Both the position numbers and the translations under genes were made by a program. Shown here piece by piece: positions 306 through 24,189 of a stretch of DNA of 29,599 nucleotides. Source of the DNA: a virus; IMG/VR virus record IMGVR_UViG_3300032267_001872, positions 1 to 29,599 of that record. One strand, 5' to 3'. Each line of letters starts with the position of its first letter. The first letter of the stretch is position 1. Under the pieces are notes generated by a model that did not search any database, was not told the DNA's origin, and saw nothing but the letters and a program-made list of their open reading frames with translations.

Positions 306-1742
306 TTATTGTTCTTCGTCTGAATGTAGGTCGTTAAGCAGTTGTCTTAATTTGCTGCCTTCTACCGTGGCTCTAATTTTACCCACTTCTTCTCCTTTAG
401 TAGGATCTAATTCTGTGCGAGCATCAGTGGCAGTGCCATCTCCAGATATTTTACTTTTTTGTTTTAACGAATCATACACAGTGGATGTCTGTTTTTTAAA
501 TTGATACTGCTCAGTATCTTCTGGTAAATCTCTAATTCTTAAAGTATCCAAATCAAACTCTAAATCCACTTTCTGTCCTACACCACTAGAACTTCTAGTT
601 TTCATAAACTGTAATTGATATCTGCCACGCTCTTTCATTGCTCGGCTAGTGAATATACCAAACACGTTGTCTGCTGTTTGTACTTTAGACAAGCCACCTG
701 CTATGTGACTGTGATCAAACTCAATTTCCTCTACAGATGCTCTATTCAATTGCGATGCTGTGGCCATCAACATTTGTGATTCTACAGCTAAATTTCTCAA
801 CTCCTCTGATACATACTTGTCTTTAATAAACAAATCAGCAGGTGATACTTTTTTACTCTTTGGCATCATAAGATCAAGATAATCGATCAATATACAATCT
901 ATTTTCTTTTTAGATTTAATTTCTAATTCTTTTAGATATGTTTTGATATCTAATACTGTGCTACCCGACGGCAAATATTTAATTTGTAGATTGCCTGACT
1001 TTTTAGCAAGTAATTTAATTTTCATTTCAACATTTGCAATTTCAGGAAATATTTTTCTTGTAGGGATATTAGTAATCATTGCATCTAATCTCATTGCCAC
1101 TAACATTTCACTTAATTCAAAACTAATATAACAACAATTCAAACCAGCAGTAGCCCAGTTAACTGCTAGATTTTGTAAGAATAAAGATTTACCTGCACCC
1201 GATCCTCCTGCAAATATGTTTAACTCACCGCGATTAAATCCTCCAAACAATTTCTTGTCGATGCTGGGCCAGCCTGTGCTGATTTGTCCATTAGAGTTTT
1301 TTAATCGTTCTAATCTACCTCGAGGATCTTCGAAGTAATCTGTGCCTATGTCTCGAGTCAATCCAATGTTGACAGCTGCCTTAATCTTATCTTCTACTGG
1401 AGCATAATCACCGTGCTCTAATAAATCTGCAGATTCTAGAATGGCTCGCTCTAATGCTTTGTGTCGAGAAAATGTTTCAAACTCATCTAACAACCAAGCG
1501 AAATGAGAAGGGTTAAGGTCTTTGGCTGTTTTTAATTTAATATCAAATTTAGCATTGACTTGATCCACTTCTGGCAATACTTTATATTGTTCAGCATACT
1601 CTTTAATAAATTTAGCAACAGGCATTAATTTTCTATCAAAATTATTACTGTCAAATATATTCTGTGCTCGTGCAAATGACTCTGCATCTGCCAGCATCAT
1701 TTCTAAATATAATTTCTGTACATCAAAAGTATAATCAGCCAT
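306..1742 (-). CDS. gp41: Replicative DNA helicase, T4 gp41 type
   Basis: This is a DnaB/gp41-family hexameric helicase that unwinds the phage fork 5'-3' on the lagging strand and works with the gp61 primase. The 478-residue length is close to T4 gp41 (475). An N-terminal helical domain covers about 1-135. The RecA-like motor starts near 155, with Walker A GGSGAGKS at 179-186, a Walker B-like run ending in LIDYLDLM near 285-295, and the sensor-type segment MATASQLNR near 325. The C-terminal 60 residues are charged and probably flexible. The start ATG follows a purine-rich AAAGAAAT ribosome site, a variant seen before several genes here. The gene is last in a minus-strand run; the usual neighbour primase is separated from it by a radical SAM gene. 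Confidence 0.93.
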   Translation of the reverse strand: MADYTFDVQKLYLEMMLADAESFARAQNIFDSNNFDRKLMPVAKFIKEYAEQYKVLPEVDQVNAKFDIKLKTAKDLNPSHFAWLLDEFETFSRHKALERAILESADLLEHGDYAPVEDKIKAAVNIGLTRDIGTDYFEDPRGRLERLKNSNGQISTGWPSIDKKLFGGFNRGELNIFAGGSGAGKSLFLQNLAVNWATAGLNCCYISFELSEMLVAMRLDAMITNIPTRKIFPEIANVEMKIKLLAKKSGNLQIKYLPSGSTVLDIKTYLKELEIKSKKKIDCILIDYLDLMMPKSKKVSPADLFIKDKYVSEELRNLAVESQMLMATASQLNRASVEEIEFDHSHIAGGLSKVQTADNVFGIFTSRAMKERGRYQLQFMKTRSSSGVGQKVDLEFDLDTLRIRDLPEDTEQYQFKKQTSTVYDSLKQKSKISGDGTATDARTELDPTKGEEVGKIRATVEGSKLRQLLNDLHSDEEQ

Positions 1743-1764: not shown

Positions 1765-2952
1765 TTATAACACATTTTCTATTTGAATCCACTCTAAAAA
1801 TGTTTTTGGAAATACCGTTAAATCAATATCTTTACGTCTTTTTGTAAATTCGTATAAGAATTCTTTAATATTTTGCCTTTCCATTTCGTTGGGTTCTTTC
1901 TTTATTGATCTTAATATAGGCTCATAAACATCTTTTGGTAATGTTAATAGATCCTGTTCGATTAATGCTTTACTATTTTTATCAATAATATGTGGACTCA
2001 TCATTCTAGGTTGATAAGCAAACGTTACAACTATTTTATGCGATTTAAATAGCTCATAAAATTTTTTAAATCCAAATATTGTAAGATTTGACAACGTTGA
2101 ATGAAACTCAAAATTAATTTTTTCTTTTTTTAATATATCAATCTTATCGGAAAATTCTACCCATTTTATCCCGTATCTATTAAACTCTAACAATTCTTCT
2201 ATATTCTCCGAGCTAACTTTTATCAAAAGATTTTTTACTTTTTTTAATTTTTCGAGCATGCCCATAAATCTAGAATTGCTAACACCTAATCCTGTATACA
2301 ATTCTATCTGTGTTGAGGAAGGTAGATTTATTTTTTCTAAAACATCTATAAGAGCATTGTCTAATAATGGTTCACCTCCAGTTACTATTAATTTTTTTAA
2401 TTTTGATGAAGCTAGTTCTATTTCTTTTAGTAAAATTTGATAATGTTTTGTATTTTTTAATTTTGACTGACTAATTTTTAACAAAGTTTTATCTTTAATA
2501 TTACCTTGATATCTATCATCTTGTGAGTCTGTAAGATTATAATTGCCATTATTAATAACGTCTCTCCTCCACGCATTGCTGTATTCTTTGCAGCAGTATG
2601 AACAAGTTAGATTACAATCTGCTCCTATAGTTAAATCAATTGTTTCTGTCTGAGTAACAGTTTCTTGATGTGTTTTTTCTACCCCTCCTTGATAAAGTCT
2701 TGGACTTTGTGCACCATGGTCTTCTGCTGACCAACAGTTTTGCTCACAACTGGCATTGCGCTCATTCTTTAACATTTGTTCTCGTTCAAACACATTTACT
2801 TTGGTATTAAAAAGGTTTCCTGGATTTTCTTTAAGCCAATCAAAATCAATTGAATGTGGAGCGGCTGCATGACAATTATATGTTGTTTTAGATCCTAAAT
2901 CTATCTTTAGGAATTTAAATTTCATTGAGCAATAATAGTTTCTATTGTCCAT
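1765..2952 (-). CDS. Radical SAM enzyme, unknown substrate
   Basis: A 395-residue radical SAM protein. The [4Fe-4S]-binding motif CxxxCxxC is at C113, C117 and C120, within the usual beta-strand context (TIDLTIGADCNLTCSYC), and a glycine-rich VTGGEPLL segment matches the SAM-binding GGE motif. The N-terminal about 105 residues hold further cysteines (C8, C27, C69, C73; SCEQNCW at 68-74) that could bind a second cluster or metal. I see no clear C-terminal SPASM cysteine set. The start overlaps the primase stop by 11 bases, so it is co-transcribed with primase and helicase. The radical SAM call is secure from motifs. The substrate is unknown: peptide or RNA modification and cofactor-type chemistry are all possible. 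Confidence 0.85.
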   Translation of the reverse strand: MDNRNYYCSMKFKFLKIDLGSKTTYNCHAAAPHSIDFDWLKENPGNLFNTKVNVFEREQMLKNERNASCEQNCWSAEDHGAQSPRLYQGGVEKTHQETVTQTETIDLTIGADCNLTCSYCCKEYSNAWRRDVINNGNYNLTDSQDDRYQGNIKDKTLLKISQSKLKNTKHYQILLKEIELASSKLKKLIVTGGEPLLDNALIDVLEKINLPSSTQIELYTGLGVSNSRFMGMLEKLKKVKNLLIKVSSENIEELLEFNRYGIKWVEFSDKIDILKKEKINFEFHSTLSNLTIFGFKKFYELFKSHKIVVTFAYQPRMMSPHIIDKNSKALIEQDLLTLPKDVYEPILRSIKKEPNEMERQNIKEFLYEFTKRRKDIDLTVFPKTFLEWIQIENVL

Positions 2953-3961
2953 GTTTCTTTCTCTTTAAATCTATTTTTAATGCTGTGGATTCTGTAGATT
3001 TTAATATTGATTGTAAAGTAAACAACCTACCATATTTAGATACAGCATCAGCAACATCGGTAATATTTTCATGCCATTCTGGGAACGCCACACTCCAACC
3101 AAACTCTTTTGCTTGATCTATAAGTTTTTGTCCTGGTTGATCTCTATCCGGTACTACAATTACCTGTCTGTTTAATCCTTGTATCAGTTCTCTTTGTGTA
3201 TCGTTAATCTCTGATCCTAGAATTGCCACGCCACCCAATGTTATAGCATCAAACGGTCCTTCCACGACCAACACAAACTTTCTTTGCCAGTCTTGAGCAT
3301 CTAGATTGAATACATAACCCGGCTGTGTCTCTGTATAATATTTTATTTCTTTGTTGCGAGTATCAAATAATCTTCCTGTGTATCCTACCACTTCACCATG
3401 CCAATAAAACGGCACAATCACTCTACGATGAAAATCAGCAGCTTGGTCCGGAGAGTAAAAGAAATCATACCACTCGGGTGCTATACCTCTACCTTTTAAA
3501 TAATTCAATAACTGATCTATTTTTTCATACTGTGCAGTTGTGAGATCTTCTGCAACATATTTTTCTAACCAGTGTTCTAATTTAAAACTGTTCTTTGGTA
3601 GTTCTTTTTTTTGGAATGAGACGAATTTCTTTTTTTCATACTTAACATCGGCTTCTTCATGGCGCATGGCCTCTATAGCTAATTTCTTAATAGTATCTTC
3701 AGCAACACCCAACCAACCCATGAGTGTTTTCATTTTGGTTGATAATTTTCTACCAATCACGTAAGATGCTGTGTAACCACAATTGAAACAGTGATAGCTT
3801 AGTGTGCCATCTGCAGAAGTCATTACTCCTCCACGTTTTCTTTTATCTGGAGATTCCCCATTGTATACACAACACGGGGCATTAAAACTCATCCAGCCTG
3901 ACGGAGTTTTCTTACGCCCGGCCGGCAACGATGTCAGGATTGTAGACTGAATCAGATTCAT
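2942..3961 (-). CDS. gp61: DNA primase, T4 gp61 type
   Basis: Primase that makes RNA primers for lagging-strand synthesis and binds the gp41 helicase. Length is 339 residues against 342 in T4. An N-terminal zinc-binding region has cysteines at 30-31 and a CFNC pair (C58, C61). The Toprim catalytic core is plain: VVEGPFDAI with E234 and D238, then PDRDQPGQ with D272 and D274, the expected metal-binding acidic positions. The C-terminus is lysine-rich. The stop overlaps the start of the radical SAM gene. The start ATG lies 9 bases from the stop of the gene upstream (3971). Confidence 0.92.
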   Translation of the reverse strand: MNLIQSTILTSLPAGRKKTPSGWMSFNAPCCVYNGESPDKRKRGGVMTSADGTLSYHCFNCGYTASYVIGRKLSTKMKTLMGWLGVAEDTIKKLAIEAMRHEEADVKYEKKKFVSFQKKELPKNSFKLEHWLEKYVAEDLTTAQYEKIDQLLNYLKGRGIAPEWYDFFYSPDQAADFHRRVIVPFYWHGEVVGYTGRLFDTRNKEIKYYTETQPGYVFNLDAQDWQRKFVLVVEGPFDAITLGGVAILGSEINDTQRELIQGLNRQVIVVPDRDQPGQKLIDQAKEFGWSVAFPEWHENITDVADAVSKYGRLFTLQSILKSTESTALKIDLKRKKHGQ

Positions 3962-3970
3962 TCTTATAGT

Positions 3971-4771
3971 TTAATGTCTATAAAGGATTTTGTCAATTTG
4001 TCCGGTATTACCAGAATTATTCGCCCAACTAAATCTTACATTCTGATAAACACCTATAAAATTATAATAGGTAACCCCTGAAGCGTTGTTAAAAGTGATT
4101 GGCGAAGACTGATCGATTGCTGTGATATTGAAATAATCAGAATCGGTAGGTAGTACTGACATAGTACCTTGAATTCTTAAAGATCCTGAAAAAGATTTTG
4201 TGTATACTGCAATTGTGTGTAGAGCCACATTATTATTAATTCCTGGATTAGCATCTATTGCTGAACTTGTTCTAGATAAAGGCCCCGTTGTACTAGTAAA
4301 ACTAGCAATCTCTTCACTGTTGATCATATCAGGATAAGCACCATCTAATACTTCCACAGTACCTGCAGCATTGTAGGCAGTGTCGGCAAATGTCACTGTT
4401 CGAGAGTTATCTGTTGCAACTTCTCTAATAGCATAATTGTAAAACTTTGCATCTAATATTAAAAGATCACCCTCTGTTACAGTTATACTAGCAGTACCTT
4501 TACTAGAGGTTGAAGAACCGTCATCTAAAATAGTTAAGTTTCTAGTTAAAACAGATTGTTTAGTTTCTGAATCTATCAACACAAATTCGTAAGTTTTAGC
4601 TGTTATATCCTGTGCTTTTTGATCTTCATTCTTAAACGTAAAAGTAAGCGGATTTGACACTCCTTTATACAGTTTTATGCGTCTATCGTACACAGTAGAA
4701 TTCCTTCCATGATAACCAGATGTGTATACTATTACCACATTGTTTAGTAAATACCTTGATACAGTTTGCAT
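3971..4771 (-). CDS. Probable virion or baseplate-type structural protein
   Basis: A 266-residue protein rich in Ser, Thr, Asn and short beta-type strands, with almost no cysteine or catalytic-looking motif. The opening (SRYLLNNVVIVYTSGY, then RRIKLYKGVSNPLTFTFKNEDQKAQDI) matches my recollection of a structural protein family common in marine T4-like phages, and its layout resembles the N-terminal beta-sandwich of baseplate upper proteins (BppU-type): a 'kind-of-force' strand followed by DQKA and a definable beta domain. The C-terminal half looks like a second beta-sandwich. A T4-late-promoter-like AATAAATA lies 17 bases upstream, which would suit a late structural gene. Function as a virion component is inference; its position next to primase is unusual for a structural gene but seen in marine relatives. 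Confidence 0.55.
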   Translation of the reverse strand: MQTVSRYLLNNVVIVYTSGYHGRNSTVYDRRIKLYKGVSNPLTFTFKNEDQKAQDITAKTYEFVLIDSETKQSVLTRNLTILDDGSSTSSKGTASITVTEGDLLILDAKFYNYAIREVATDNSRTVTFADTAYNAAGTVEVLDGAYPDMINSEEIASFTSTTGPLSRTSSAIDANPGINNNVALHTIAVYTKSFSGSLRIQGTMSVLPTDSDYFNITAIDQSSPITFNNASGVTYYNFIGVYQNVRFSWANNSGNTGQIDKILYRH

Positions 4772-4787
4772 AGTTCATTGCTCACTG

Positions 4788-4795
4788 TATTTATT
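4788..4795 (-). promoter_or_regulatory. Possible T4-type late promoter
   Basis: The minus strand reads AATAAATA here, 7 of 8 bases of the T4 late consensus TATAAATA. It faces the probable structural gene starting at 4771. The resulting leader would be only about ten bases long and has no clear Shine-Dalgarno, so the call is weak. In an AT-rich genome such matches also arise by chance. Confidence 0.3.
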
Positions 4796-4804
4796 GAATA
4801 TACT

Positions 4805-5179
4805 ATGAATGAAATTTTTGAAACATTAAAAAGTAAGTTTCCGTTCTTATCCTTAATACGCAAAGGGGATTTAGAATTTATAGGAATTGTACAAAATCAA
4901 GACACCCAAGTAACCAGCTTCTATGATTATGGAAGAATCATGTTACCAGCAGATAAAATGAAATTCTTAAAATTAGGAGAAACTTGGTGGTGGGAATCTA
5001 ATAGAAAAATACCAATTAATATATTCCTTAAGAAAGACTTTACTTATTTTAAGCCAACACTAGTAACACTATCTAGTAAAGATATAAAAATAGTACATGG
5101 ACCTGTTGTGAGATTGGAAGATATATCCAAAAAAAGAATCAAACGCAGAACTATACAGTTAATGCGTCGACCTGTTTAA
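4805..5179 (+). CDS. Conserved small phage protein, unknown function
   Basis: A 124-residue basic protein beginning MNEIFETLKSKFPFLSL. An in-frame upstream ATG at 4766 would overlap the divergent gene and adds a poorly supported 13 residues, so I prefer 4805. Features seen: a central aromatic run ETWWWES, a mixed alpha/beta pattern, and a strongly basic tail (KKRIKRRTIQLMRRP) that could contact nucleic acid or a nucleoprotein. It is one of the few plus-strand genes and its stop overlaps the convergent DnaE-like gene by 4 bases. I recall similar proteins in marine T4-like genomes but know no function. Confidence 0.7.
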   Translation: MNEIFETLKSKFPFLSLIRKGDLEFIGIVQNQDTQVTSFYDYGRIMLPADKMKFLKLGETWWWESNRKIPINIFLKKDFTYFKPTLVTLSSKDIKIVHGPVVRLEDISKKRIKRRTIQLMRRPV

Positions 5180-5742
5180 TTTTTATTTCTCTTTATTAAA
5201 TTCATCTGTACCACAATAGCTTGGGCGTATGCAACAGCATGTGATTTTTTAAAAAAATAACTGTCGTCTTTCGGTTTCAACCAAACCTCTTTTAATATTT
5301 CCAGCCAATACTTGTGCATGAGGTGACGTTTGGCCGGTCGTATGATCGCTAATACAGCTGCCAACTGCTCAATGTTTTTAGGTTCCAGTTTAGATACTAT
5401 ATCAAAATGACCATTGATATGAAACAGTTGATCCACAATGTTTTTATCTTTTAACATATTCCAGTCTGGTTCTTCTAACATTAACTCTACTAATTGTTGT
5501 TCTGTCCTTATAGCTTCGTAGAGATTTACATTTAATAAATCTATTTTAAAGTATCCTCGTTCTTCTGCTCTTTTGTAATCAAAACTACAGGAATTTAACA
5601 TCGGATCTACAGGCACTTCTTGAAAGTATACTCCTGTTTTGTGTTTTTCTATTTCTTCATCTTTAATAATAGAAGCTGGCACATGTTTAAACAACTTCAG
5701 TGCGTGGTCTCTATTTGCAAAATCTATATCTACATCAGGCAT
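5176..5742 (-). CDS. Miniature DNA polymerase III alpha (DnaE)-like protein
   Basis: A 188-residue protein in which motifs of the C-family polymerase catalytic core occur in the right order. PDVDIDF at 2-8 matches the DnaE PDFDVDF motif (candidate catalytic D5 and D7). HKTGVYF then GYFKIDLL at 63-70 matches GLVKFDFLGL (third aspartate, D68). QLFHINGHFDIVSKLEPKNIEQLAAVLAIIRP (about 105-136) matches the DnaE fingers region ending in ALFRPGP. FFKKSHAVAYA at 163-173 matches FNKSHSAAYAL. The PHP domain, most of the fingers, the beta-binding and OB regions are absent; the E. coli protein has 1160 residues. The start overlaps the preceding stop as TGATG, with purine-rich AGAAAGAAA upstream. Relationship by motif is strong; polymerase activity is uncertain. 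It could be a real minimal enzyme or a replisome-binding relic. Confidence 0.7.
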   Translation of the reverse strand: MPDVDIDFANRDHALKLFKHVPASIIKDEEIEKHKTGVYFQEVPVDPMLNSCSFDYKRAEERGYFKIDLLNVNLYEAIRTEQQLVELMLEEPDWNMLKDKNIVDQLFHINGHFDIVSKLEPKNIEQLAAVLAIIRPAKRHLMHKYWLEILKEVWLKPKDDSYFFKKSHAVAYAQAIVVQMNLIKRNKN

Positions 5743-5966
5743 CAGTTATATTTCTTTCTATTAGTTTCCGATCTTATCAATGCACCTTTTTCTTTGTCAA
5801 TAAATTCTAATACATTCAAAGTCAATTTATAACCCTTGCTCTCTTGTGCTGGATTGTTAACTTCTGGCAGAATCACTTCTCCAATAGATCCATTTTCTTT
5901 AATCACTATAATACAATCTCCATCAGACACGTCTATACCTTCTTCTATTTTAACTTTATTACTCAA
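5742..5966 (-). CDS. Small conserved protein with a TTG start
   Basis: A 74-residue protein beginning SNKVKIEEGIDVSDGD. The longer reading from an ATG at 6005 adds 13 arginine-rich residues that merely read through the preceding gene. The TTG at 5966 is preferred because a textbook AAGGAGG lies exactly 6 bases upstream (5973-5979), whereas the upstream ATG has none. The protein is a mix of strands (DCIIVIKENGSIGEVILPEV) followed by a basic tail, with no cysteine or catalytic motif. It overlaps the zinc-finger gene upstream and the DnaE-like gene downstream, so all three should be translationally coupled. Function unknown. Confidence 0.75.
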   Translation of the reverse strand: MSNKVKIEEGIDVSDGDCIIVIKENGSIGEVILPEVNNPAQESKGYKLTLNVLEFIDKEKGALIRSETNRKKYN

Positions 5967-6645
5967 TTTTGGCCTCCTTGGCTGTCTCCTGTACAAATAT
6001 TGCATCTGCTGGCGATGATTTAAATTTGTTTGACCAAAACTCTGGATTAATAAATCGCTGTACCATTTGTAATTGTTCGTCCGTAAAAGAGTTTAACATC
6101 TTTTTACCAGCACCACAACCAAGCACCAACCATGGAGATACTTTTCCGGTTTGTATGTGTTGCACAGCTCGAGGAGTATTAACTAAGCGAAAATAATCCG
6201 CCCATTGTACATTTTGTTCTTCTGCCCAATCCATCATGGTTTGTATAGATCTCGTGAGTGCTGCTTCTACCGGTTCTGCTTTTAACATGTCTATAAGATA
6301 TGCTTCGTACAAATCGTCTCTTGCCCAGTGATCTAATTTTATTCTTGATTTGATTATGTAATCGATATATTTTTCTGGATACAACGGACCCACATGCATA
6401 ATGTATCTACCAAACTTTACAAAAGCATTATAATAAGCACTCTTACAAAAGTCTTCGTAGGTTTTTGGTTTTCCGTTATTCTGATGTATTTGATAGAATC
6501 TTTGAAATACTAAAAAAGCATTCTGCACCCATTTTTCATTTTTTTGTAGATGTCGACGCTTAGGTTCACACACGTGAACTTGTAGAGTTCTCTCTTTTGT
6601 AAAACTTTTGCTGCAGAATGTACAAGTATTAAGATTGTTTTCCAT
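5959..6645 (-). CDS. Conserved phage protein with an N-terminal C2H2-like zinc finger
   Basis: A 228-residue protein. The N-terminus has CTFCSKSFTKERTLQVHVC: C8, C11, then H24 and C26, with H32 as an alternative ligand, which is a C2H2-type zinc-finger layout including the usual aromatic and leucine core positions. The remaining about 190 residues are mostly helical, rich in Trp, Tyr and Lys, without a catalytic signature I can name. It sits between gp62 and two small genes in the replication operon and overlaps both neighbours (17 and 8 bases). A DNA-binding or replication accessory role is inference from the finger and the context. I recall homologues in marine T4-like phages annotated only as hypothetical. 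Confidence 0.7.
   Translation of the reverse strand: MENNLNTCTFCSKSFTKERTLQVHVCEPKRRHLQKNEKWVQNAFLVFQRFYQIHQNNGKPKTYEDFCKSAYYNAFVKFGRYIMHVGPLYPEKYIDYIIKSRIKLDHWARDDLYEAYLIDMLKAEPVEAALTRSIQTMMDWAEEQNVQWADYFRLVNTPRAVQHIQTGKVSPWLVLGCGAGKKMLNSFTDEQLQMVQRFINPEFWSNKFKSSPADAIFVQETAKEAKIE
5967..5979 (-). promoter_or_regulatory. Strong ribosome binding site deciding a TTG start
   Basis: AAGGAGG (5973-5979) followed by 6 bases and TTG. It is embedded in the coding end of the zinc-finger gene, where it also encodes part of AKEAK. It is one of the best Shine-Dalgarno matches in the window and fixes the start of the 74-residue protein. Confidence 0.8.
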
Positions 6646-7081
6646 GATCCTCTAGCAGTTGTTCTAGTTCGCCGTCGGTTATAAGTTTATCCAGTGTTTC
6701 TAGATCTGATTGTTTTGTATTAGGAAAAATTTCCATTAACTTTTGTAAAGATTTATTCACTGTTTTTTTCATTGGTTTAACCCATGGATGAAATTGTTGT
6801 TTTAATCCCCCACACATAGCAGTTAATAGCCAACATAATTTTTTGTGTTTTCCGCTTAATTCAAAAAGATTTTTATTAACACACTCATTAATCATTTCAA
6901 CGTAATGCTCTTGATAGAATCTATCTCCTGATACAGCAGAAGCATATCTCATAATCATATAAGGACTATATAAAGACCTTTCATGATCGTCTATTCTATC
7001 GTAATAATCTTTGTTACGAAAGTCTATGGCTTTCATACCATTCCTTAATTCAAAAAACTTTTTTTTCTTTTCTTCACTCAT
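6629..7081 (-). CDS. gp62: Sliding-clamp loader small subunit, T4 gp62 type
   Basis: A 150-residue, mostly helical protein. The pattern SPYMIMRYASAV, then YVEMINECVNKN, then KLCWLLTAMCGG and a tryptophan-containing WVKP follows the spacing of gp62 proteins (in T4 YSKFMVENALS, then an AMN segment, a YLMAAV segment and KW). Gp62 with gp44 forms the ATP-driven loader of the gp45 clamp; it carries no ATPase motif itself, consistent with what is seen. T4 gp62 is 187 residues and marine relatives are shorter. The gp44 gene is not in this window. It overlaps both neighbours by under 20 bases within the operon that starts near 10591. The call rests on pattern likeness, not on a catalytic motif. Confidence 0.65.
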   Translation of the reverse strand: MSEEKKKKFFELRNGMKAIDFRNKDYYDRIDDHERSLYSPYMIMRYASAVSGDRFYQEHYVEMINECVNKNLFELSGKHKKLCWLLTAMCGGLKQQFHPWVKPMKKTVNKSLQKLMEIFPNTKQSDLETLDKLITDGELEQLLEDHGKQS

Positions 7082-7316
7082 CTTCTCTCCATGTTAGTGC
7101 AAACACCGATGCATGCTTAGGGTTTTTAAAAGTTATTTCTATGTTCTTACCTTTCAACTGATAGCCCTGTATGCTTAATCTCTTTTTCTTAGCATGAGCC
7201 ATAATCCATGTAATGTAATGTCGATTCATTAACACAGGTATCTCTCGATCTTTTTCGTCTGGAACTAAGATAACAGGAGCTTCCATACGAACCACGTTGT
7301 CTTTTATTTTTACCAT
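7074..7316 (-). CDS. Small protein of unknown function in the replication operon
   Basis: An 80-residue protein with alternating predicted strands (NVVRMEAPVILVPDE, GKNIEITFKNPKHASVFALTW) and a basic centre (HAKKKRLSIQGY). No cysteines beyond chance and no named motif. The start ATG overlaps the previous stop by 7 bases and its end overlaps gp62 by 8 bases, which implies coupled expression with clamp-loader components. I do not recognise the family. Confidence 0.65.
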   Translation of the reverse strand: MVKIKDNVVRMEAPVILVPDEKDREIPVLMNRHYITWIMAHAKKKRLSIQGYQLKGKNIEITFKNPKHASVFALTWREDE

Positions 7317-7813
7317 ACCGAGCCGTAATCCATAAATTCTGATTGTCTAGATATGTCTTTAACAAAATAAGCACAAGGTGGATTATCCCCATCTGTTAAA
7401 GGTACTGCAAGTATTTGTCCTGATTTAATTTTAGGAAAGTACCATTTGACTTCTTGATAAATGTCTACAATATCTATTTCTGCAAATTCGGGTCTTGACC
7501 CAGTTATCGGATTATATATAAATGCAGAAAAACCTCGATCGTTCAAACTAGTTATTGGCAGTACATGTAGTTCTCCTTGTTCCGGATCTCCTATAATCAT
7601 CTTCCAATCTAGCGGCATTTTTATTTTATGTTTTCCTATTTGTAATACTGCTGCTGGGGCATTGAAAGATTCTAAAAATATTAGTGGTATAAAAAAATAA
7701 TCAGGATCAGCTGGGTTAGAGTTATCCAGCACGGCGAATCTTAATTTGTCATCCACATATTCTGGTATTTTTTCTAGTATGTATGTTTTATTTTCTAATG
7801 TAAGGATTTTCAT
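7310..7813 (-). CDS. Conserved phage protein of unknown function
   Basis: A 167-residue protein of mainly beta character: KTYILEKIPEYVDDKLRFAVLDNS, then DPDYFFIPLIFLESF, AAVLQIGKHKIKMPLDW and a proline-rich C-terminus. The central IGKHKIKMPLDWKMIIGDPEQGELHVLPI segment looks like a small barrel; proteins with this stretch are, as I recall, conserved in marine T4-like phages without assigned role. The start lies 26 bases inside the end of uvsW, so it is read from the same transcript. No signal peptide, membrane segment or catalytic set is seen. Confidence 0.65.
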   Translation of the reverse strand: MKILTLENKTYILEKIPEYVDDKLRFAVLDNSNPADPDYFFIPLIFLESFNAPAAVLQIGKHKIKMPLDWKMIIGDPEQGELHVLPITSLNDRGFSAFIYNPITGSRPEFAEIDIVDIYQEVKWYFPKIKSGQILAVPLTDGDNPPCAYFVKDISRQSEFMDYGSVW

Positions 7814-10650: not shown

Positions 10651-11055
10651 ATGAGAAGAAAAAGAGCATTAAAATTAAGACGTAAAATACAAGTGGAAAC
10701 ACTTAACGATAAGGGTCCTTATCTTACCAACAGACATGCTATAGACCTTTGGTTTCGTTACATCAATCGAGCAGTGTTTGATAACCAGTTGCCCAATTTT
10801 CACAAGATATTAATCAAGAAATGGTTAAAGCGGGCCATGGGACAGGTGTGTGCATATCCGGACAAAAATCCTAAAAGATTTGAACTGGAAATGTTAAAAA
10901 AATATAGAACCAAAAGAGATTTTATAGAGACACTGGCACACGAGATGATACATCTATATCAGTTTGCGTTGAAAAAGGACACCGGCAACCACAACAGTAT
11001 GTTCTATAGTTTTAGGTCAAGGTTTAAATTTATCGGCCTAGGACTTTCTCAGTAA
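10651..11055 (+). CDS. SprT-like zinc metalloprotease
   Basis: A 134-residue protein with the zincin motif HEMIH (H97, E98, H101) inside the helix ETLAHEMIHLYQF and a third ligand candidate H114 in GNHNSMF, the SprT/Spartan layout (HExxH then a downstream histidine). Before it lies the SprT-like W-helix (AIDLWFRYINRAVFDNQLP). Spartan proteins cleave DNA-protein crosslinks; the phage role is not established. The N-terminal 15 residues are strongly basic (RRKRALKLRRK), suitable for nucleic-acid contact. It is on the opposite strand to its neighbours and its 3' end overlaps the convergent GT42-like gene by 26 bases. The family call is solid; the substrate is unknown. Confidence 0.85.
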   Translation: MRRKRALKLRRKIQVETLNDKGPYLTNRHAIDLWFRYINRAVFDNQLPNFHKILIKKWLKRAMGQVCAYPDKNPKRFELEMLKKYRTKRDFIETLAHEMIHLYQFALKKDTGNHNSMFYSFRSRFKFIGLGLSQ

Positions 11056-11782
11056 ATTCCGCATAGGTCATTAATTGAGTATTTTTTAAATCTGTGCCTG
11101 TTTGTAGATGATGCAACGGTTCCGGGGGATTATCATGAACCACAATAAATTGACAATACGGCCTTTGTTTGATACAAATTCTAAATTGAGTCAACCATCC
11201 TTCGTGTGTAACATCGCTGTCTCTAGCACCATAATGTTGAGTATCTTGATAGATATTATTCAACTGTCCTTTGCCGTATTCTTTAAAATCAAAACCTATT
11301 AGATAGATATTTTTATGACCATGCACACACGCAGTCCAAAAAGCAGCAGAACCAGATACCCAATGAGGATTATTTGGTATTAAATTTAATTTTTTTTTAC
11401 TTCTAGTATATTCTAATGCAGGAGCATAACAAATAGATTTTTCATAAACTCTTTCATCCACTATGGTTTGTGAAATAAATCGATCCACCATAAAAAGATA
11501 ATCGGGAGTAAAATCTCTATATAGAGCATTACAACCATAAATTTGACCTGTGTCTTTTAAAAGATTTAAATCAAAATCCTTTCTAGAAGGACCATTACCA
11601 ATAATATAGGCATTGCCTCGTGGCACTGCTTTGACAGCGTCTTCAACATATTCTGTTTCTTGCGTTTTTTTACCGCCCTTGATTAGAATCCTAGTTATTA
11701 TAGTTTCTCCGGTATAGGGTTTCCACTCTATAGGCGTAACTGTGGTTAAGTCTTTATGTTTTATAGTTGGTTCAACAGTCAT
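11030..11782 (-). CDS. GT42/MptE-like (DUF115-type) transferase
   Basis: A 250-residue protein whose motifs follow the sialyltransferase GT42 and MptE/Maf-like fold: AYIIGNGPSRKDFD (GNGPS at 62-66), YGCNALYRDFTPDYLFMVD (83-100), SGSAAFWTACVHGHKNIYLIGFDF (143-166). GNGPS is the nucleotide-binding turn in Campylobacter CstI/CstII, and the SG-x-hydrophobic-ACA-x-G plus GxDF segment is also shared. The N-terminal 50 residues are an additional basic segment. Likely roles are transfer of a CMP-linked or other nucleotide sugar, or flagellin/surface glycosylation type chemistry. It directly follows the stop of the next gene (TAA then ATG, no gap) at the left edge of the sugar island. Donor identity cannot be read from the sequence. 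Confidence 0.65.
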   Translation of the reverse strand: MTVEPTIKHKDLTTVTPIEWKPYTGETIITRILIKGGKKTQETEYVEDAVKAVPRGNAYIIGNGPSRKDFDLNLLKDTGQIYGCNALYRDFTPDYLFMVDRFISQTIVDERVYEKSICYAPALEYTRSKKKLNLIPNNPHWVSGSAAFWTACVHGHKNIYLIGFDFKEYGKGQLNNIYQDTQHYGARDSDVTHEGWLTQFRICIKQRPYCQFIVVHDNPPEPLHHLQTGTDLKNTQLMTYAEFTEKVLGR

Positions 11783-12655
11783 TTATTTTATATATTTCTC
11801 TTTTAACCTTTCTCTAATTCTAGCCCACGGCATGCCATCTTTAATTTCTTGTGTGGTCCATTCGGTATAAGAAAGTTTGTTTGCCCAATTTTGTCTAGCA
11901 GGCATGGCTGGATGTTCAATATCTGACAACGTAACATTGCCAACATCGTGGCATAGACTAGACTCACTTACAAAAACAGGTATACCACCAATCACTGCTT
12001 CCATGGCAGGATTACTAGAATGATTTACAACTGCCCATGTTGATTTAAGTACTTTTTTAAAATCAGTATCATCATAAGTGTTCCAATCTCTTTGAGGTTT
12101 TTTAATTCTTACATGAGGGTATTTTTTCTCATCAAAATCAAAAGTGTTCCTAGGATGTGGTCTTATTAATATTGGTTTTTGACTATACTTTCTAATTTCT
12201 TGTATTTGTTTTTCAATCCAATTGGTCATACGAGGATTTTTCTTCCATTGGTTGCTGGTGTCATGCTGTCCACATATTACTATTACATTTCCTGTTTGTT
12301 TCCATGGTTTCATCTCAATATTGAATAACGGCCATCTTTTATTATCAAACGTTTGATTAGCGAAATCAGCATCTCTATTAATTCCGTTTATTCCCATCTT
12401 CCAAGTAACGTTTCTTTTGAGTCCTCCTACTTCCATAACTACTACAGGTTTCTTTTGTGCTTGATAACTGTCCCATATTTTTTTATTACCGGCCATTCTT
12501 CCTAACCATAACACAGACCAAATCACAGCAACATCACAATCTCGATCTTCATTGATGTATACTTCTTCTCCCTTCGAACGTAGATGATCAATGAGAGCAG
12601 CAAACACAGGCTTGCTGTTAATACTACCGTTGTCTGGAAATAGTGCTATCCTCAT
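11783..12655 (-). CDS. Capsule-polysaccharide-type transferase, copy 1
   Basis: A 290-residue protein beginning MRIALFPDNGSINSKPV. The ATG at 12655 forms a perfect ATGA overlap with the preceding stop; the longer reading from 12697 is rejected. It has two Rossmann-like halves: N-terminal DVAVIWSVLW, then PILIRPHPRNTFDF (a conserved RPHP turn) and AVVNHSSNPAMEAVIGGIPVFVS, the 'hidden in a repeat' donor-site segment of capsule-synthesis (KpsC/KpsS, Capsule_synth) and related GT-B transferases. The C-terminus YTEWTTQEIKDGMPW is shared with the three other copies in this island (15325, 16298, 19650). A sugar transferase acting on a surface polymer is likely; substrate unknown. Confidence 0.7.
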   Translation of the reverse strand: MRIALFPDNGSINSKPVFAALIDHLRSKGEEVYINEDRDCDVAVIWSVLWLGRMAGNKKIWDSYQAQKKPVVVMEVGGLKRNVTWKMGINGINRDADFANQTFDNKRWPLFNIEMKPWKQTGNVIVICGQHDTSNQWKKNPRMTNWIEKQIQEIRKYSQKPILIRPHPRNTFDFDEKKYPHVRIKKPQRDWNTYDDTDFKKVLKSTWAVVNHSSNPAMEAVIGGIPVFVSESSLCHDVGNVTLSDIEHPAMPARQNWANKLSYTEWTTQEIKDGMPWARIRERLKEKYIK

Positions 12656-13560
12656 TTTAATGACGTTGGTGCTTTCTTCCAATAATCTATATCCCACACA
12701 TTGGCAGGAGCATCTTTCATCGCGGGTCTCAAATCAGTTTTAGCACTGCTGCCTACTTTTTTTCTCTTGCCTTTCATATGATCCATATATAAACCCAATT
12801 CGCTGTTTACAAACACATGATGGCCCTTGACATTTTTAGCATAACCAATATCATTCACTTCTATGTTATATGTTTTTTGAAATTGTTTTACAAGGTGCCA
12901 GAACAAAAAACTATCATGCCATTCCAATAATTTAAAAACATCATCTGTAACGAATAATTTTTCCCATTCTTTTACAAATTCTTGTATATTAGAATGTCGT
13001 AAATTGTAGCCTACAAATCCACACTCTGGATATTTCCCCCCATCGTTTAGGGAAAATCTTTCTCTGCCTAGATAGGTCACCATAGTATTGTTGGGTAACA
13101 GTGTTTTGAGAAAGTCTAACGGTATTGGTCTAAAAGTAAATGTATCTGCGTCGATCCATATTATATAATCATAATCTTTAGAATTGCGTATGGCATTGAC
13201 CACACAAAAAACTTTATTACTGAATCTCACAGCGTCCCAAAGGAATGATCCTTTGTTTTTATCTTGTCCTCCTTGTTGTTGCAGGGCAGCAGGTCTCTTA
13301 ACACCACCTGCAATTTCTTGTAACTCTCCACACGCCACGGGATCATTTTTATGTTTGTTTTTAAATTTAAAAAGTTCTGGTTCAGCTGCATTGAGATCAA
13401 CCCACTGTATTCTAGGATGGTCGTAGTTGGGCTTGGGTTCTTCGAGATAAACTACTAAATCTGTTTCTATAGGCCATTGTTCAGCAATGCTCTTAATACC
13501 TCTACCAGAATAAAGATCCCATGTACCTGGTTTGTAGGAAGTAATTACTTTGATTTTCAT
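12652..13560 (-). CDS. GT-A fold glycosyltransferase
   Basis: A 302-residue protein with the metal and nucleotide-sugar binding DxD motif as DAD at 137-139 within the strand DYIIWIDADTF, preceded by a nucleotide-binding N-terminal strand (KIKVITSYKPGTWD). Further conserved-looking segments are ECGFVGYNL and WHDSFLFWHLV (acceptor or catalytic side), typical of GT-A enzymes that act on polysaccharides. The protein has no signal peptide or membrane helix and should be cytoplasmic. It is followed by copy 1 of the capsule-type family through an ATGA overlap. A 44-base gap separates it from the asparagine-synthase gene; the gap holds a perfect 7-bp palindrome across that gene's stop. Confidence 0.8.
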   Translation of the reverse strand: MKIKVITSYKPGTWDLYSGRGIKSIAEQWPIETDLVVYLEEPKPNYDHPRIQWVDLNAAEPELFKFKNKHKNDPVACGELQEIAGGVKRPAALQQQGGQDKNKGSFLWDAVRFSNKVFCVVNAIRNSKDYDYIIWIDADTFTFRPIPLDFLKTLLPNNTMVTYLGRERFSLNDGGKYPECGFVGYNLRHSNIQEFVKEWEKLFVTDDVFKLLEWHDSFLFWHLVKQFQKTYNIEVNDIGYAKNVKGHHVFVNSELGLYMDHMKGKRKKVGSSAKTDLRPAMKDAPANVWDIDYWKKAPTSLK

Positions 13561-13597
13561 ATATAAACTTTCATATATTTACTGATACAAATCTTTT

Positions 13598-13612
13598 ATG
13601 AATATTATTCAT
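13598..13612. repeat. Palindrome across the asnB-like stop codon
   Basis: ATGAATA-T-TATTCAT is a perfect 7-bp inverted repeat that includes the TAA stop of the asparagine-synthase gene. No T-run follows on the minus strand, so it is not an evident intrinsic terminator. It may be a weak mRNA hairpin or chance in AT-rich DNA. Confidence 0.4.
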
Positions 13613-15323
13613 GCATATCATATCTTTTGATCCAATCTTGCATTACCCAAGACGGAATGAGAGCTTTACTTGCCTTTTGGCTTACTGTAACTCGATCTAA
13701 TATAGATTTTTTCCCCATGCTGCTCGCATAAAAGTTTTTTAAATCTTTATCAGTGCCTGCGGCCAACCACTGTCCAATTGGCACAGTCCAACCAGTTTTT
13801 GGTTTATTGATTATAGCATCTGGCAGTAATCCTTTGTAGGCAATTTTGGTTAATAATTTGGTTTCATGTTTATCTTTTCCTATTTTATAACTCGTTGGTA
13901 TGTCTAGACAGTATTGCATAAACATCTTTGTGGTCAAAGGAAATCGTCCTTCCATACCGAATGCCATGCCATACTTGTCATTCCTAGCAAAGAATTCATT
14001 GGGTGCTTGTGCCACACAATCAAGTGCCATATAAGATGCTACGGGATCTGCGGGATTCCATAGAGTATCAGGATACAATTTTATTAACTCTTCTCTCAAT
14101 ACAGATGCTGACAGAGTAGGTACACCCACCACTAGCGGTCTTTTTATTCTTTGTAACCATTTGTCTATTATGCTGCTCCATGAATTAAATTTTTCATCTT
14201 TCATCTTCCAGTACTTAGGATACCCTCCTAGGATTTCATCACCCATATCGCCAGCCATGGTTATGATTGTGCCGGCTTCAGATAATTTACGATTGGTATG
14301 ATAGTACATGCTCATGCTGGGATTGTACACAGGTTGCTCCATGAAGTAGATGCTGTTATCCCATGCTGCAATAACATCAGCAGGAGTAATAATGACTTCT
14401 GTATGATTAAACTTTTCTTGCTCGGCTAATATTTTTGCACAAGCAGCATCACTGTTATAATCTTCGTCTGTTATGATATTAGGGTTCATTCGGTTAGTAA
14501 ATGTATTCACTGCACCGTGTATCTTCATCATCTCGTAGGCTATTACACTGCTGTCTAATCCACCACTGAGAAATACTCCTATCTGTCTTCGTCCTATGCT
14601 GCACATCTGCACGGTCTTTCTAGCCTTATTTCTAAACTCTGCAGGATCAAAAGAAGAATTAGATCTAGGGGTGATATAAATTCTTTCTGATGATTTTATT
14701 CTTTTATTTGTGCAATCGTATACAATTGTTTCTCCAGGCATCAATTGTTTTATGTTGGTGAAGAATGTGTTCCTAGTGGCATTGATGCCTGTGAGACTCA
14801 TACAACTGATTGCCAACTGATCTATCTTTCTAGAGTTAGGCACTCGATCCAGCATGCCTTTTATTTCAGAACCAAATATTAATCCTTCTGCTGTTTCGGC
14901 ATAGTATAGAGGTTTAATACCGGCGTGATCTCGACTCAATATCAGTTGTTTTGTTTGAGTGTTATAATAGGCAAAGGCATGCATACTATCGATCTGCTCA
15001 ACAAATTTTTCACCATAGTGATCCAACCCCCATGCTAGTAATTCTGTGTCACATGTGGTCTTGGGTTTAAATTCTGTATATTTTTTTATTAGATCAAAAT
15101 AATTAAAGATTTCTCCATTATAGATCAATATGTTGCCTCGCTCAGTACGCCATGGTTGATGCGAAACCGTGGGTTGATCGGTTATGCTCAAAAGATTGTG
15201 TCCTAGAGTAACATAATCATCGTTCCAGATATCATGTCCATCCGGTCCTCGATGTTCGCAAATCTTTATATACTTTTCTACAAATTCTCTGTCTCGTTTG
15301 GTTATACCATATATGCCACACAT
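13605..15323 (-). CDS. asnB: Glutamine-dependent asparagine-synthase-type amidotransferase
   Basis: A 572-residue AsnB-family protein, complete. The Ntn glutaminase domain starts with catalytic C2 (MCGIYGI) and has RGPDG at 25-29, NGEIFNY at 69-75 and SRDHAGIKPLYY near 130-141. The synthetase domain has the ATP-pyrophosphatase loop SGGLDSS at 253-259 and a downstream MAGDMGDEILGGYPKYW segment typical of the family. AsnB makes asparagine from aspartate, but members in polysaccharide loci amidate sugar acids or other carboxylates. Its place between glycosyltransferases favours the second role; free asparagine supply to a streamlined host remains possible. It is 1 base from the stop of the preceding gene, with AGGA upstream of its ATG. 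Confidence 0.93.
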   Translation of the reverse strand: MCGIYGITKRDREFVEKYIKICEHRGPDGHDIWNDDYVTLGHNLLSITDQPTVSHQPWRTERGNILIYNGEIFNYFDLIKKYTEFKPKTTCDTELLAWGLDHYGEKFVEQIDSMHAFAYYNTQTKQLILSRDHAGIKPLYYAETAEGLIFGSEIKGMLDRVPNSRKIDQLAISCMSLTGINATRNTFFTNIKQLMPGETIVYDCTNKRIKSSERIYITPRSNSSFDPAEFRNKARKTVQMCSIGRRQIGVFLSGGLDSSVIAYEMMKIHGAVNTFTNRMNPNIITDEDYNSDAACAKILAEQEKFNHTEVIITPADVIAAWDNSIYFMEQPVYNPSMSMYYHTNRKLSEAGTIITMAGDMGDEILGGYPKYWKMKDEKFNSWSSIIDKWLQRIKRPLVVGVPTLSASVLREELIKLYPDTLWNPADPVASYMALDCVAQAPNEFFARNDKYGMAFGMEGRFPLTTKMFMQYCLDIPTSYKIGKDKHETKLLTKIAYKGLLPDAIINKPKTGWTVPIGQWLAAGTDKDLKNFYASSMGKKSILDRVTVSQKASKALIPSWVMQDWIKRYDMHE

Positions 15324-15324
15324 A

Positions 15325-16308
15325 TTATAATCCTAATCTCTGTTTGAATCTACGAAACACTGTGCCATCTTTGATTTCTTCTGTGGTCCACATCTTATAT
15401 CCTAGGTCATTCAACCATTGTGTTCTATCAGGGTATTCTGGTGATTCTATTTTAGTTAGATCTCTATTAGCCACAGGCCAGCATATCGCTAGATCTGACG
15501 TGCAGAAAGTAGGGATACCTCTCACACAACTGTCTGTGCTGGCAGTTGAATTGTGTGTTATCACGGCATGACAACTAGCAATTGCTTCTTGAAAATTGAA
15601 TCTATAGAATTTTTTATTATCTCCCGAAAAAAATTTTTCTCCTATTATCAATTCAACATCTGCAGGAAATTCGTTTTTTCTTTGTTCCATAACTGCTACA
15701 TGATTAGGATGAGGCCTCACTAAAAATTTTCTAGAAGTTAATGGTCTCAGTGTTTTATAAACGCTATTGAACCAATCGATAGGATCTAATTCATTCATAC
15801 TCCAGTTGTCTTTAGGTTGTAATACAAACAGTATTGGATCACTTAGATTAGATTTCCTCCATGGATCGTTTTTAATATTCCATAAACCTTTCATCATTTC
15901 CCAACGATCTGGCGGAGAATTATCTGATAAAAAGTTACCATTGTTCATGGGAGAATACAGAGCCACTCTCCAGTGATGTTTAGGATGATCCACTGTGTTT
16001 CCAAAACTGCTCAGTAGACCCCCATCGAATGTAATAATATAGATACCTTTCTTTTTGGCACGCTCTACAAGATCTCTTCTTCTGCCTTTGGTGTGATGCA
16101 TCTGTTTGTCGCCACCGTAACCAAACATACAACCAATCGGAGCAGTGGGTTCCATTTCATCCTGACGCCACTCTCCTGTGAGAGTTTCATTAACAATTAC
16201 GGGTTCATCGCCAGATTTTTTTATACCCTCAGCCATGTGTTGTAATAATTCCCAGCTGGCTCCTCTACGTCTATCTTTTACTGTTCTTCGAAATATTTCA
16301 ACTTTCAT
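15325..16308 (-). CDS. Capsule-polysaccharide-type transferase, copy 2
   Basis: A 327-residue relative of the genes at 11783, 16298 and 19650. Visible landmarks are FLVRPHPNHVAVM (the RPHP turn), CHAVITHNSTASTDSCVRGIPTFCTS (donor-site glycine-proline segment), and a C-terminal MWTTEEIKDGTVFRRF tail. A strong ribosome site GGAGG lies 7 bases before the ATG, and the start overlaps the stop of copy 3 by 11 bases. The N-terminal half carries a glycine-rich FGYGGDKQMHH segment not shared with the other copies. Likely a GT-B-like sugar transferase of a surface polymer; the acceptor is unknown. Confidence 0.7.
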   Translation of the reverse strand: MKVEIFRRTVKDRRRGASWELLQHMAEGIKKSGDEPVIVNETLTGEWRQDEMEPTAPIGCMFGYGGDKQMHHTKGRRRDLVERAKKKGIYIITFDGGLLSSFGNTVDHPKHHWRVALYSPMNNGNFLSDNSPPDRWEMMKGLWNIKNDPWRKSNLSDPILFVLQPKDNWSMNELDPIDWFNSVYKTLRPLTSRKFLVRPHPNHVAVMEQRKNEFPADVELIIGEKFFSGDNKKFYRFNFQEAIASCHAVITHNSTASTDSCVRGIPTFCTSDLAICWPVANRDLTKIESPEYPDRTQWLNDLGYKMWTTEEIKDGTVFRRFKQRLGL

Positions 16309-17113
16309 CTAATATCCTCCATGCCCAACCATTTTGCATTTCTTCTGCTGAGAATTGTCCGTATGCTAGAGAATAATAACAAGGTTCTCTATCTGCATAC
16401 TTGGGTGTTTCTATTTTTGAAAAATCTTGCTCTGCTATAGGCGCACACGAATTCATAACATCTGTGTACACAGGTATGCCTCTTGCTGTGGCTTCTATGG
16501 TTATGTTGCTATTAAATGTTACTATAGCATGTGTATCATTCCAATCGATCGGTGTTGCTGTGTCTTCGTTATCGTTGGCTCCCGGCATTAATCGACCCAA
16601 CGTATCAATTTTACTGTCTGGATTATATCCTTTATTTCTCACAACTATTTCTCGATCAGTATTTGCTCGTAAAGTTTCTAAAGTTTTAGATAACCAATCC
16701 TCTTGTTCAAACATAACTGCCATACTGTGTGTGGGAGGACATACCACAATTTTACGACCGTTCTTCTTCCATGGTTCTATCTTGAATGGAAAATATTTTT
16801 TAAATCTATCATCAGGTCTAGATTCTAAGTAATTCTTCACATGACCGTTTTTGGTTATTCTCATTAGATAAGGATTGCCTCTACTCTCTCCCCAGTAAGG
16901 ACGATCCATGAAATAAAAATCAATTTTGTTTTTTAGAGCCCAATGATACACCATATTTGTGCCTCTTAATATTCCCATTAATACAACTTTGTCAGCATCT
17001 CTCTGTTGTATCACTTGATCGTATGGTAAAATCTTTGATCCTGGTAATCCTTGTTGAGCCCATGTTATATATTTTTCTGTAGCGGGTCTATCGGTTTTGC
17101 TGAGATATATCAT
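16298..17113 (-). CDS. Capsule-polysaccharide-type transferase, copy 3
   Basis: A 271-residue member of the same family, closest in length and pattern to the plus-strand copy at 19650. Shared landmarks: DFYFMDRPYWGESRGNPY (compare DYWYTDTPYFGRFDN), a 'P-x-W' segment before a strand KIVVCPPTHSM, AIVTFNSNITIEATARGIPVYTD, and the tail YSLAYGQFSAEEMQNGWAW. In copy 4 the tail reads YSLAYQQFTPEEFKNG. It heads the minus-strand run 17113 to 11030 and its start faces the divergent glycosyltransferase at 17161 across 47 AT-rich bases. I see no strong promoter there. Confidence 0.7.
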   Translation of the reverse strand: MIYLSKTDRPATEKYITWAQQGLPGSKILPYDQVIQQRDADKVVLMGILRGTNMVYHWALKNKIDFYFMDRPYWGESRGNPYLMRITKNGHVKNYLESRPDDRFKKYFPFKIEPWKKNGRKIVVCPPTHSMAVMFEQEDWLSKTLETLRANTDREIVVRNKGYNPDSKIDTLGRLMPGANDNEDTATPIDWNDTHAIVTFNSNITIEATARGIPVYTDVMNSCAPIAEQDFSKIETPKYADREPCYYSLAYGQFSAEEMQNGWAWRILDES

Positions 17114-17160
17114 CGTTATTAATTATTTTGTTTTTTTCATAGCTTAAAAATAAATATTGC

Positions 17161-17913
17161 ATGAAAAATCTCATAATTCAATATTATATAGATACCAACC
17201 TATATACTCAACCAAATTTTAATAATCTCTATGCCAGTCCTGCGGAGCAGTATTCTAGTCATAGTTTTCAACTATATTGCAAAAAACATGGTATAGATTA
17301 TATTAAAATTACCAAACCTAAATTAGGATTTAAACATCCAACATGGGAAAGATTTGATCTATGGATAGATCAGTCTTGGAGAGATCAATATGATAGAATA
17401 TTATATGTGGATAGTGATGTTTTTGCCTTACCACATGCTACAAATATATTTGATGAATATCCAGATCTAGATACATTTAAAGCAGCCGTATATAAAAAAT
17501 ATCGACAAGGAACTCCAGAACAATGTAAGGAAATTACTAAAGATATTAGTTTATTCAATGATATAAATGGAGAAGATATAAAAACAAAATTTATACAACC
17601 TGGAGTATTCATGTTGAATAAAAAATGTATAGAAGACATGTTACCTTATATTAGCCAATATAAAGACATCACAGATGATAAGATTGATGACGGTATGTTT
17701 TTAAATTATTGTATAGTAAAAAGTGGAGTGTCTTATAAAGATATGATGCCGCAATGGAATTTTAAAAATAACGGTTGTGAAAAATTTAATAAAAAATCTA
17801 CATATTTCTTGCATGCAGCAGGAGGAAAAAAACATAAAAAAGGCAATATGTGGAATCTGTTAAACAACATTTATCCAGAAATAAATGCGGATCTTTCACA
17901 GTTTTCTAATTAA
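17161..17913 (+). CDS. GT-A glycosyltransferase, paralog of the gene at 20459
   Basis: A 250-residue GT-A enzyme. DSD at 84-86 lies in the strand YDRILYVDSDVFALP and is the metal/donor-binding DxD. The N-terminus MKNLIIQYYIDTN and the segment HPTWERFDLW match the paralog at 20459 (MKNCIVQFFMES; HPTFERFDLF), and both have an IQPGVFMLNKK or FNAGVFMLNW acceptor-loop segment and a final HAAGGKK or HGYGQKK motif. So the two genes arose by duplication and then diverged. It is cytoplasmic, lacking membrane segments. The 3' end overlaps the convergent GT61 gene by 18 bases. Confidence 0.8.
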   Translation: MKNLIIQYYIDTNLYTQPNFNNLYASPAEQYSSHSFQLYCKKHGIDYIKITKPKLGFKHPTWERFDLWIDQSWRDQYDRILYVDSDVFALPHATNIFDEYPDLDTFKAAVYKKYRQGTPEQCKEITKDISLFNDINGEDIKTKFIQPGVFMLNKKCIEDMLPYISQYKDITDDKIDDGMFLNYCIVKSGVSYKDMMPQWNFKNNGCEKFNKKSTYFLHAAGGKKHKKGNMWNLLNNIYPEINADLSQFSN

Positions 17914-18975: not shown

Positions 18976-18988
18976 TGTATTTTCTATA

Positions 18989-19016
18989 ATTATACTATAA
19001 AATAGTAAAATGACAA
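18989..19016 (-). promoter_or_regulatory. Sigma-70-type promoter for the GT61 gene
   Basis: Minus strand: -35 TTGTCA (19011-19016) and a perfect -10 TATAAT (18989-18994), 16 bases apart. The -35 lies inside the first codons of the divergent SGNH gene. Transcription would begin near 18982, leaving about 7 bases before the ATG at 18975. Confidence 0.55.
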
Positions 19017-22274: not shown

Positions 22275-22276
22275 TT

Positions 22277-24099: not shown

Positions 24100-24189
24100 C
24101 TTTATTTCTTTTTCATTTTCTACAATATTTTTTTATAATAAAAAATCCAAACATCTCCGCTAAAATGTATGTAGCATCCTTTTATTTCT
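24100..24189 (-). other. Intergenic gap after uvsX
   Basis: Ninety AT-rich bases between the uvsX stop and the 74-residue gene. The minus strand has TATAAAAA-type and TATTATAA words that could be late or -10-like elements. I see no convincing hairpin terminator or -35. Confidence 0.3.

Follow-up and report, generated by a model that had tools for sequence, protein, structure and literature searches.

Gene organization of the locus

The window (the whole stretch of viral DNA analysed here, a contig of 29.6 kb) carries on its minus strand a 188-residue ORF, hereafter gene A, in which an earlier note, silent about the strand, had recognized motifs of bacterial DnaE in their usual order. Both the ORF and the order of its motifs were confirmed. 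The genes on either side of A are arranged as follows:

306–1742, minus strand: DnaB/gp41-like helicase
1765–2952, minus strand: radical-SAM-like ORF between primase and helicase (Pfam match below cut-off)
2942–3961, minus strand: primase
3971–4771, minus strand: structural-like ORF downstream of A
4766–5179, plus strand: convergent gene (phrog_11637) that shares 4 nt with A at the stop of the latter
5176–5742, minus strand: gene A (188 aa), putative C-terminal unit (Mg2+-binding palm and fingers) of a split minimal DNA polymerase III alpha
5742–7813, minus strand: run of five overlapping genes upstream of A; the stop of the gene next to A shares 1 nt with the start of A
5742–6005, 6629–7081 and 7074–7316, minus strand: members of this run
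5959–6645, minus strand: conserved protein (phrog_11058) whose start resembles a C2H2 zinc finger (sub-threshold match); second gene upstream of A
7310–7813, minus strand: upstream gene, phrog_11279

The proposed affiliation to a T4-like phage is supported by the gp32-, UvsW-, RecA/UvsX-, primase- and DnaB-like neighbours of A; a gp62 gene had also been named among them, and this one was not confirmed, as no family match was obtained and the alignment with T4 gp62 was unconvincing. Neither tRNA genes nor Rfam RNAs were detected in the window. The convergent gene lies beside A in phages Phosso, Atu_ph07, PA5oct, 121Q, Slicko01 and SCTP-2 as well, and a run of small genes also precedes A in other jumbo phages and in 121Q, where it is located downstream of a UvsW-like helicase gene. 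The order of genes after A (structural protein, primase, helicase) is the same in 121Q, PA5oct and Phosso. In one relative (L044), the primase and helicase genes are adjacent, without the radical-SAM-like ORF between them.

Sequence conservation of gene A

Relatives of A were identified in 90 phage records, and three overlapping scans of IMG/VR yielded 425, 50 and 542 of them. Comparison of 146 distinct sequences, with identities to the window's protein down to about 35%, revealed not a single substitution, gaps aside, at residues D3, D5, D7, H34, G37, P44, K66, D68, R135, P136, K138, H168 and Y172. Residues D3, D5, D7, H34, K66, D68, R135, H168 and Y172 were found in 143 to 145 of the 146 sequences, the remainder being gaps, although conservation of the first strand was partly selected for, since some loci had been fetched with patterns containing MPDVDIDF/PDVDIDF or DIDIDFKD; K66 and D68 lie outside the patterns of two of the IMG/VR scans (those with 425 and 50 relatives), and the tblastn and profile matches are free of this bias. 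The aspartates D5, D7 and D68, for which the earlier note had suggested a survey of phage homologues, are thus among the invariant residues, as is D3. The dN/dS values between the A gene of the window and those of eleven relatives ranged from 0.03 to 0.08. In addition, the length of A and its gene order are uniform over many phages, and its relatives come from phages that infect very different hosts. As judged from these sequence comparisons, A is a real gene under strong purifying selection.

Gene A retains the DnaE motifs in a condensed form

The motifs PDVDIDF, GYFKIDLL, LAAVLAIIRP and FFKKSHAVAYA follow one another in A as they do in DnaE, and an additional DnaE motif, KHxxG, was found at K33–G37, corresponding to KHAGG 510 of DnaE. 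The ordered motif set was recovered in none of 200,000 shuffles of the A protein. The PDFDVDF sequence of E. coli DnaE begins at P400, so that D401, D403 and D405 correspond to D3, D5 and D7 of A; further along the chain, K553, D555 and H760 correspond to K66, D68 and H168. D401, D403 and D555 are the active-site aspartates of E. coli DnaE (PMC3919608, PMC8485763), and H760 is its steric gate (PMC8485763). Gene A keeps the equivalents of all five residues D401, D403, D405, K553 and D555. The candidate catalytic aspartates had previously been given as D5, D7 and D68: all of them are indeed kept, but the first pair was one step off and is correctly D3 and D5. The codons concerned are located as follows:

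5722–5739, minus strand: catalytic strand P2–D7 (PDVDID; D3 and D5 equivalent to D401 and D403, followed by D7), invariant in 143 of 143 distinct relatives that have the residue
5539–5547, minus strand: K66-I67-D68 (equivalents of K553 and D555, the latter the third catalytic aspartate), with K66 and D68 unchanged in all 145 such relatives
5239–5241, minus strand: H168, which lies in the fingers helix and is equivalent to the steric gate H760, unchanged in all 143 such relatives

Relative to DnaE, about 79, 10, 17 and 88 residues are gone between successive motifs, the stretch of about 79 lying between PDxDxD and KH and that of about 88 before the steric-gate helix. The 188 residues comprise palm and fingers alone: Pfam gave no further match, the PHP, clamp-binding and C-terminal domains are absent, and the GRGS triphosphate motif is likewise missing from the chain. 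The claim that over 80% of the usual protein is lacking is right for A taken alone.

Family assignment and predicted fold

The A protein matched phrog_11778, annotated as 'DNA polymerase', with an E-value of 1.3e-64 and, more weakly, larger DnaE-type families (phrog_405, E 6e-6), whereas Pfam returned only a sub-threshold match to the fingers. A phmmer search with A alone gave no match among PDB sequences, and the best C-family match in an hmmsearch of the PDB had an E-value of 0.76. HMM-HMM comparison, a check proposed in the earlier note, bore out the colinearity of A with E. coli DnaE, and with the one-piece phage polymerase U described below, but the matches were weak (E 0.0025–0.0044 at low probability for hhalign of A and DnaE), as is expected since so many of the inter-motif residues are gone from A.

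The AlphaFold2 model of A, based on 31 aligned sequences, had a pLDDT of 90.5 and a pTM of 0.76. When this model was compared with the PDB by Foldseek, the first 16 matches were all C-family polymerases, including those of Taq, E. coli and M. tuberculosis (best E 4.7e-4, probability 1.00), and no others were found below an E-value of 1; among viral structures, the first named matches were phage DNA polymerases. The predicted fold contains a Pol-beta-type palm. Altogether, family profiles, structure prediction and residue conservation support the proposal that A represents a genuine, if condensed, palm and fingers of the C-family (DnaE type), the palm being of the Pol-beta type.

Bacterial DnaE (Pol III alpha of E. 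coli, Taq and M. tuberculosis) and A have in common the motif order, the aspartate triad, the K553 equivalent, KHxxG, the RP motif, the steric-gate histidine and the predicted fold. On the other hand, DnaE comprises 1160 residues against the 188 of A, which has no PHP domain, GRGS half, OB-fold or tau-binding domain. The one-piece DnaE-like polymerases of phages (phrog_405, that of Streptomyces phage Sujidade, and U) have a C-family palm and fingers like A, and differ from it in being single chains with their own GRGS motif and a full catalytic core. The B-family replicase of T4 (gp43) has an unrelated palm fold and is not homologous to A.

A second gene carries the missing part of the palm

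A search with PF07733 revealed a second small ORF (gene B) in all 12 A-bearing records of at least 140 kb, which comprise seven named phages (Phosso, Atu_ph07, PA5oct, 121Q, Vibrio 2.275.O, Slicko01 and SCTP-2) and five contigs of 345–371 kb; tblastn also gave B matches in the same kinds of named phages. The B proteins, of about 160–195 aa, belong to phrog_11127 and match positions 16–96 of PF07733. Their sequence contains ..WGVGRGSSVASYVLYLIG.. and ends in ..EFLK, which corresponds to the DnaE stretch directly before PDFDVDF, the point where A begins. By profile, B was aligned with residues 321–392 of E. coli DnaE (E 9.5e-4), and a structure search was suggestive, its first nine matches, at E-values of 0.055 and above, all being Pol III alpha. 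The GRGS motif was present in all 93 non-redundant B sequences, one of the B scans having used this motif as a pattern and another not. The catalytic residues of A and the triphosphate loop of B are complementary, so that the two together would make up one minimal C-family palm plus fingers. No natural B-A fusion ORF was found among the loci examined, U being a one-piece polymerase that is no close relative of A or B, and no clamp-binding or thumb module was recognizable in either protein.

Gene B adjoins clamp-loader (gp44-like) and co-chaperonin-like genes and lies at least 11 kb from A; in 121Q, the two are gp16 (A) and gp56 (B). A is also present in eight of the ten B-bearing contigs that reach 220 kb or more; the two exceptions (G028, of 543 kb, locus L160, and G030, of 359 kb, locus L178), in which no A was recognizable, are also without a recognizable phrog_47 primase. 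A B-family polymerase was found in the 12 large A-bearing genomes and in the ten B-bearing contigs, G028 and G030 included. In G028, the matches to this polymerase fall in two separate ORFs, one of 549 and the other of 572 aa, with about 7 kb between them. These comparisons of sequences and models document the homology, fold, complementary break, conservation and co-occurrence of A and B.

Relationship to the split polymerase of jumbo phages

A split minimal DNA polymerase III alpha module of group 2.2 jumbo phages was described by Iyer et al. (2021), who, in their passages on this module, propose that the two units reconstitute an active enzyme and suggest a resemblance between the split forms and ancestors of the bacterial replicase (PMC7824862). 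Earlier genome papers had noticed only a truncated alpha subunit or an epsilon-like gene (PMC5259590, PMC6102473). A C-family polymerase in a T4-type phage, regarded as unexpected in the earlier note, had already been reported for group 2.2 jumbo phages (PMC7824862). The A gene of the window is a new environmental member of this described module: like the C-terminal unit of Iyer et al., it is a stand-alone Mg2+/template-binding unit that starts at PDxDxD, and it is surrounded by the same convergent small gene, structural protein, primase and DnaB-like helicase. In terms of families, A corresponds to phrog_11778 and B to phrog_11127, and the module is found beside a B-family polymerase, which coexists with A in the named phages. 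The window's clade differs from the described module in being uncultured and represented by fragments only, in which B and a B-family polymerase have not yet been seen, and many of its members add the unsplit polymerase U, which goes unmentioned in the passages of Iyer et al. on the split module. What is new here are the hundreds of uncultured relatives, the residue statistics, the structures, and the clade with A and U as a lead. Our literature searches retrieved no experimental follow-up of the split polymerase.

An unsplit C-family polymerase in the clade of the window

Relatives of A with more than about 73% identity to that of the window are found in environmental contigs of at most 122 kb. 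Many contigs of this clade encode U, an intact, PHP-less C-family polymerase of 563 aa, on the same strand as A and 4–8 kb downstream of it (for example at 268–1959 of locus L155, minus strand, and at further loci from L307 to L386). This arrangement was observed in all 26 U loci whose upstream sequence extends over at least 8.2 kb, the gene order being A, primase, helicase, an endonuclease III-like gene (where genes were listed) and U. The U protein matches almost the entire PF07733 and the fingers domain; its RGS, PDxDxD, KHxxG and KxD motifs and its fingers histidine are intact, and RGS, the aspartate triad, KHxxG and the histidine are invariant in 11 sequences. IMG/VR contains 295 relatives of U, and a distant homologue (38% identity) is encoded by an uncultured phage of 484 kb (LR756508) that lacks both A and B.

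At the left end of the window, bases 1–305, which follow the helicase gene, contain no minus-strand coding frame that could belong to U, and no U was found within 22 kb downstream of A in a relative of 121.8 kb (G001). A search for B in contigs of the clade matched only the N-terminal part of U itself, and common flanking genes gave no convincing link between B-bearing contigs and the clade. No B-family polymerase was detected in 14 contigs of the clade, all of them fragments, and gp43, gp44, gp45, gp62 and B were all missing from three long ones (121.8, 91.4 and 86.9 kb). The three longest contigs thus lack even gp44 and gp45, indicating that the core replication segment of these phages is unassembled, so that the absence of B and of a B-family polymerase means little.

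A proposed two-polypeptide polymerase and alternative readings

We consider it likely that A is the C-terminal half of a minimal C-family polymerase made of two polypeptides, with B as its partner. The physical assembly of A and B, their polymerase activity and their cellular role, as inferred from sequence, may be outlined as follows. A would provide the catalytic palm strand, with D3/D5 and D68 for two Mg2+ ions and with K66, as well as the fingers helix bearing the steric-gate His168, and B would provide the N-terminal piece of the palm, whose GRGSS loop would hold the triphosphate of the incoming nucleotide. The two would probably assemble into one Mg2+-dependent active site that comprises about 360 residues and has no PHP, OB-fold or tau-binding domain. 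This site would add nucleotides next to the B-family replicase of the phage, its most likely task being repair, gap filling or a special replication step. The location of B in the clamp-loader neighbourhood, and of A in a recombination/primase neighbourhood, suggests a role at forks or in recombination-linked repair synthesis. The phage from which the 29.6-kb window derives would presumably encode B as well.

An active site distributed over two small proteins, with genes kilobases to tens of kilobases apart and beside a full B-family replicase, is unusual. If active, the pair would count as a C-family polymerase of strikingly small size; it could serve as a simple system to define the indispensable parts of Pol III and to ask whether such split forms are similar to the ancestors of the bacterial replicase. 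The clade with A and U lends itself to comparing split and one-piece forms in a natural setting.

In that clade, the partner of A could instead be U and not B, with A serving as an accessory or regulatory subunit or as a second core. The position of U 4–8 kb downstream of A on the same strand in every eligible locus, its intact motifs and the failure to see a separate B in the clade would fit such a partnership, which we nevertheless regard as rather unlikely: U carries a complete active site of its own and occurs in LR756508 without A or B, the window ends just after the helicase gene and shows no U, G001 has A with no U in the 22 kb that follow, and the gp44/B region of the clade is not assembled. 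Given that no gp43-type polymerase has so far been found in the clade, U might even have become its replicative polymerase, A being re-used as a partner or second core, and to this we attach only a small probability.

The readings put forward in the earlier note, of a relic, a lone minimal nucleotidyltransferase or a decoy, are not supported by the data, since the GRGS part is held by the conserved B gene of the same phages and the metal-binding, lysine and steric-gate residues are undecayed. That A alone is a minimal nucleotidyltransferase acting on an unrelated substrate, and not a template-dependent polymerase, would agree with its fold and three aspartate ligands, which fit the Pol-beta nucleotidyltransferase superfamily; it is nonetheless improbable, as the GRGS motif needed for triphosphate binding resides in B and not in A, and a feature of template-dependent polymerases, the fingers helix bearing the steric-gate H168, is retained in A. 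Mimicry is conceivable for a protein that resembles the core of the host enzyme in phages that own a B-family replicase, and A might then dock on the host replisome, or imitate host Pol III alpha, and stall host replication. This decoy function appears very improbable, because the strictest conservation concerns catalytic and nucleotide-selecting residues, A has no beta-clamp-, epsilon- or tau-binding domain, a second gene preserves the matching GRGS half, and relatives of A are distributed over phages of very different hosts. The invariant steric-gate histidine and the complementary B gene make both the decoy and the lone nucleotidyltransferase poor explanations. As for a decaying relic of a captured dnaE gene, the loss of most of DnaE is what such a relic would show, yet the low dN/dS, the invariant active site and the uniform length and gene order over many phages leave it hardly any probability. 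Residue conservation, dN/dS and the B gene that complements A led us to reject both the decoy and the relic.

Other features of the window

The RecA/UvsX-like gene (24187–25263, minus strand) contains one in-frame TGA at residue 178 (GDLG*KPKAL), likely a point change or a sequencing error. Positions 11030–23433 are occupied by a long block of glycosyltransferase-like ORFs, several of them apparently paralogous, within which an asparagine synthase/glutamine amidotransferase ORF is located (13605–15323); the block resembles a surface-sugar or modification island. A gene for an SprT-like metallopeptidase was found at 10651–11055 on the plus strand, and SprT-like genes are noted for some group 2.2 jumbo phages in passages of Iyer et al. 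(PMC7824862).
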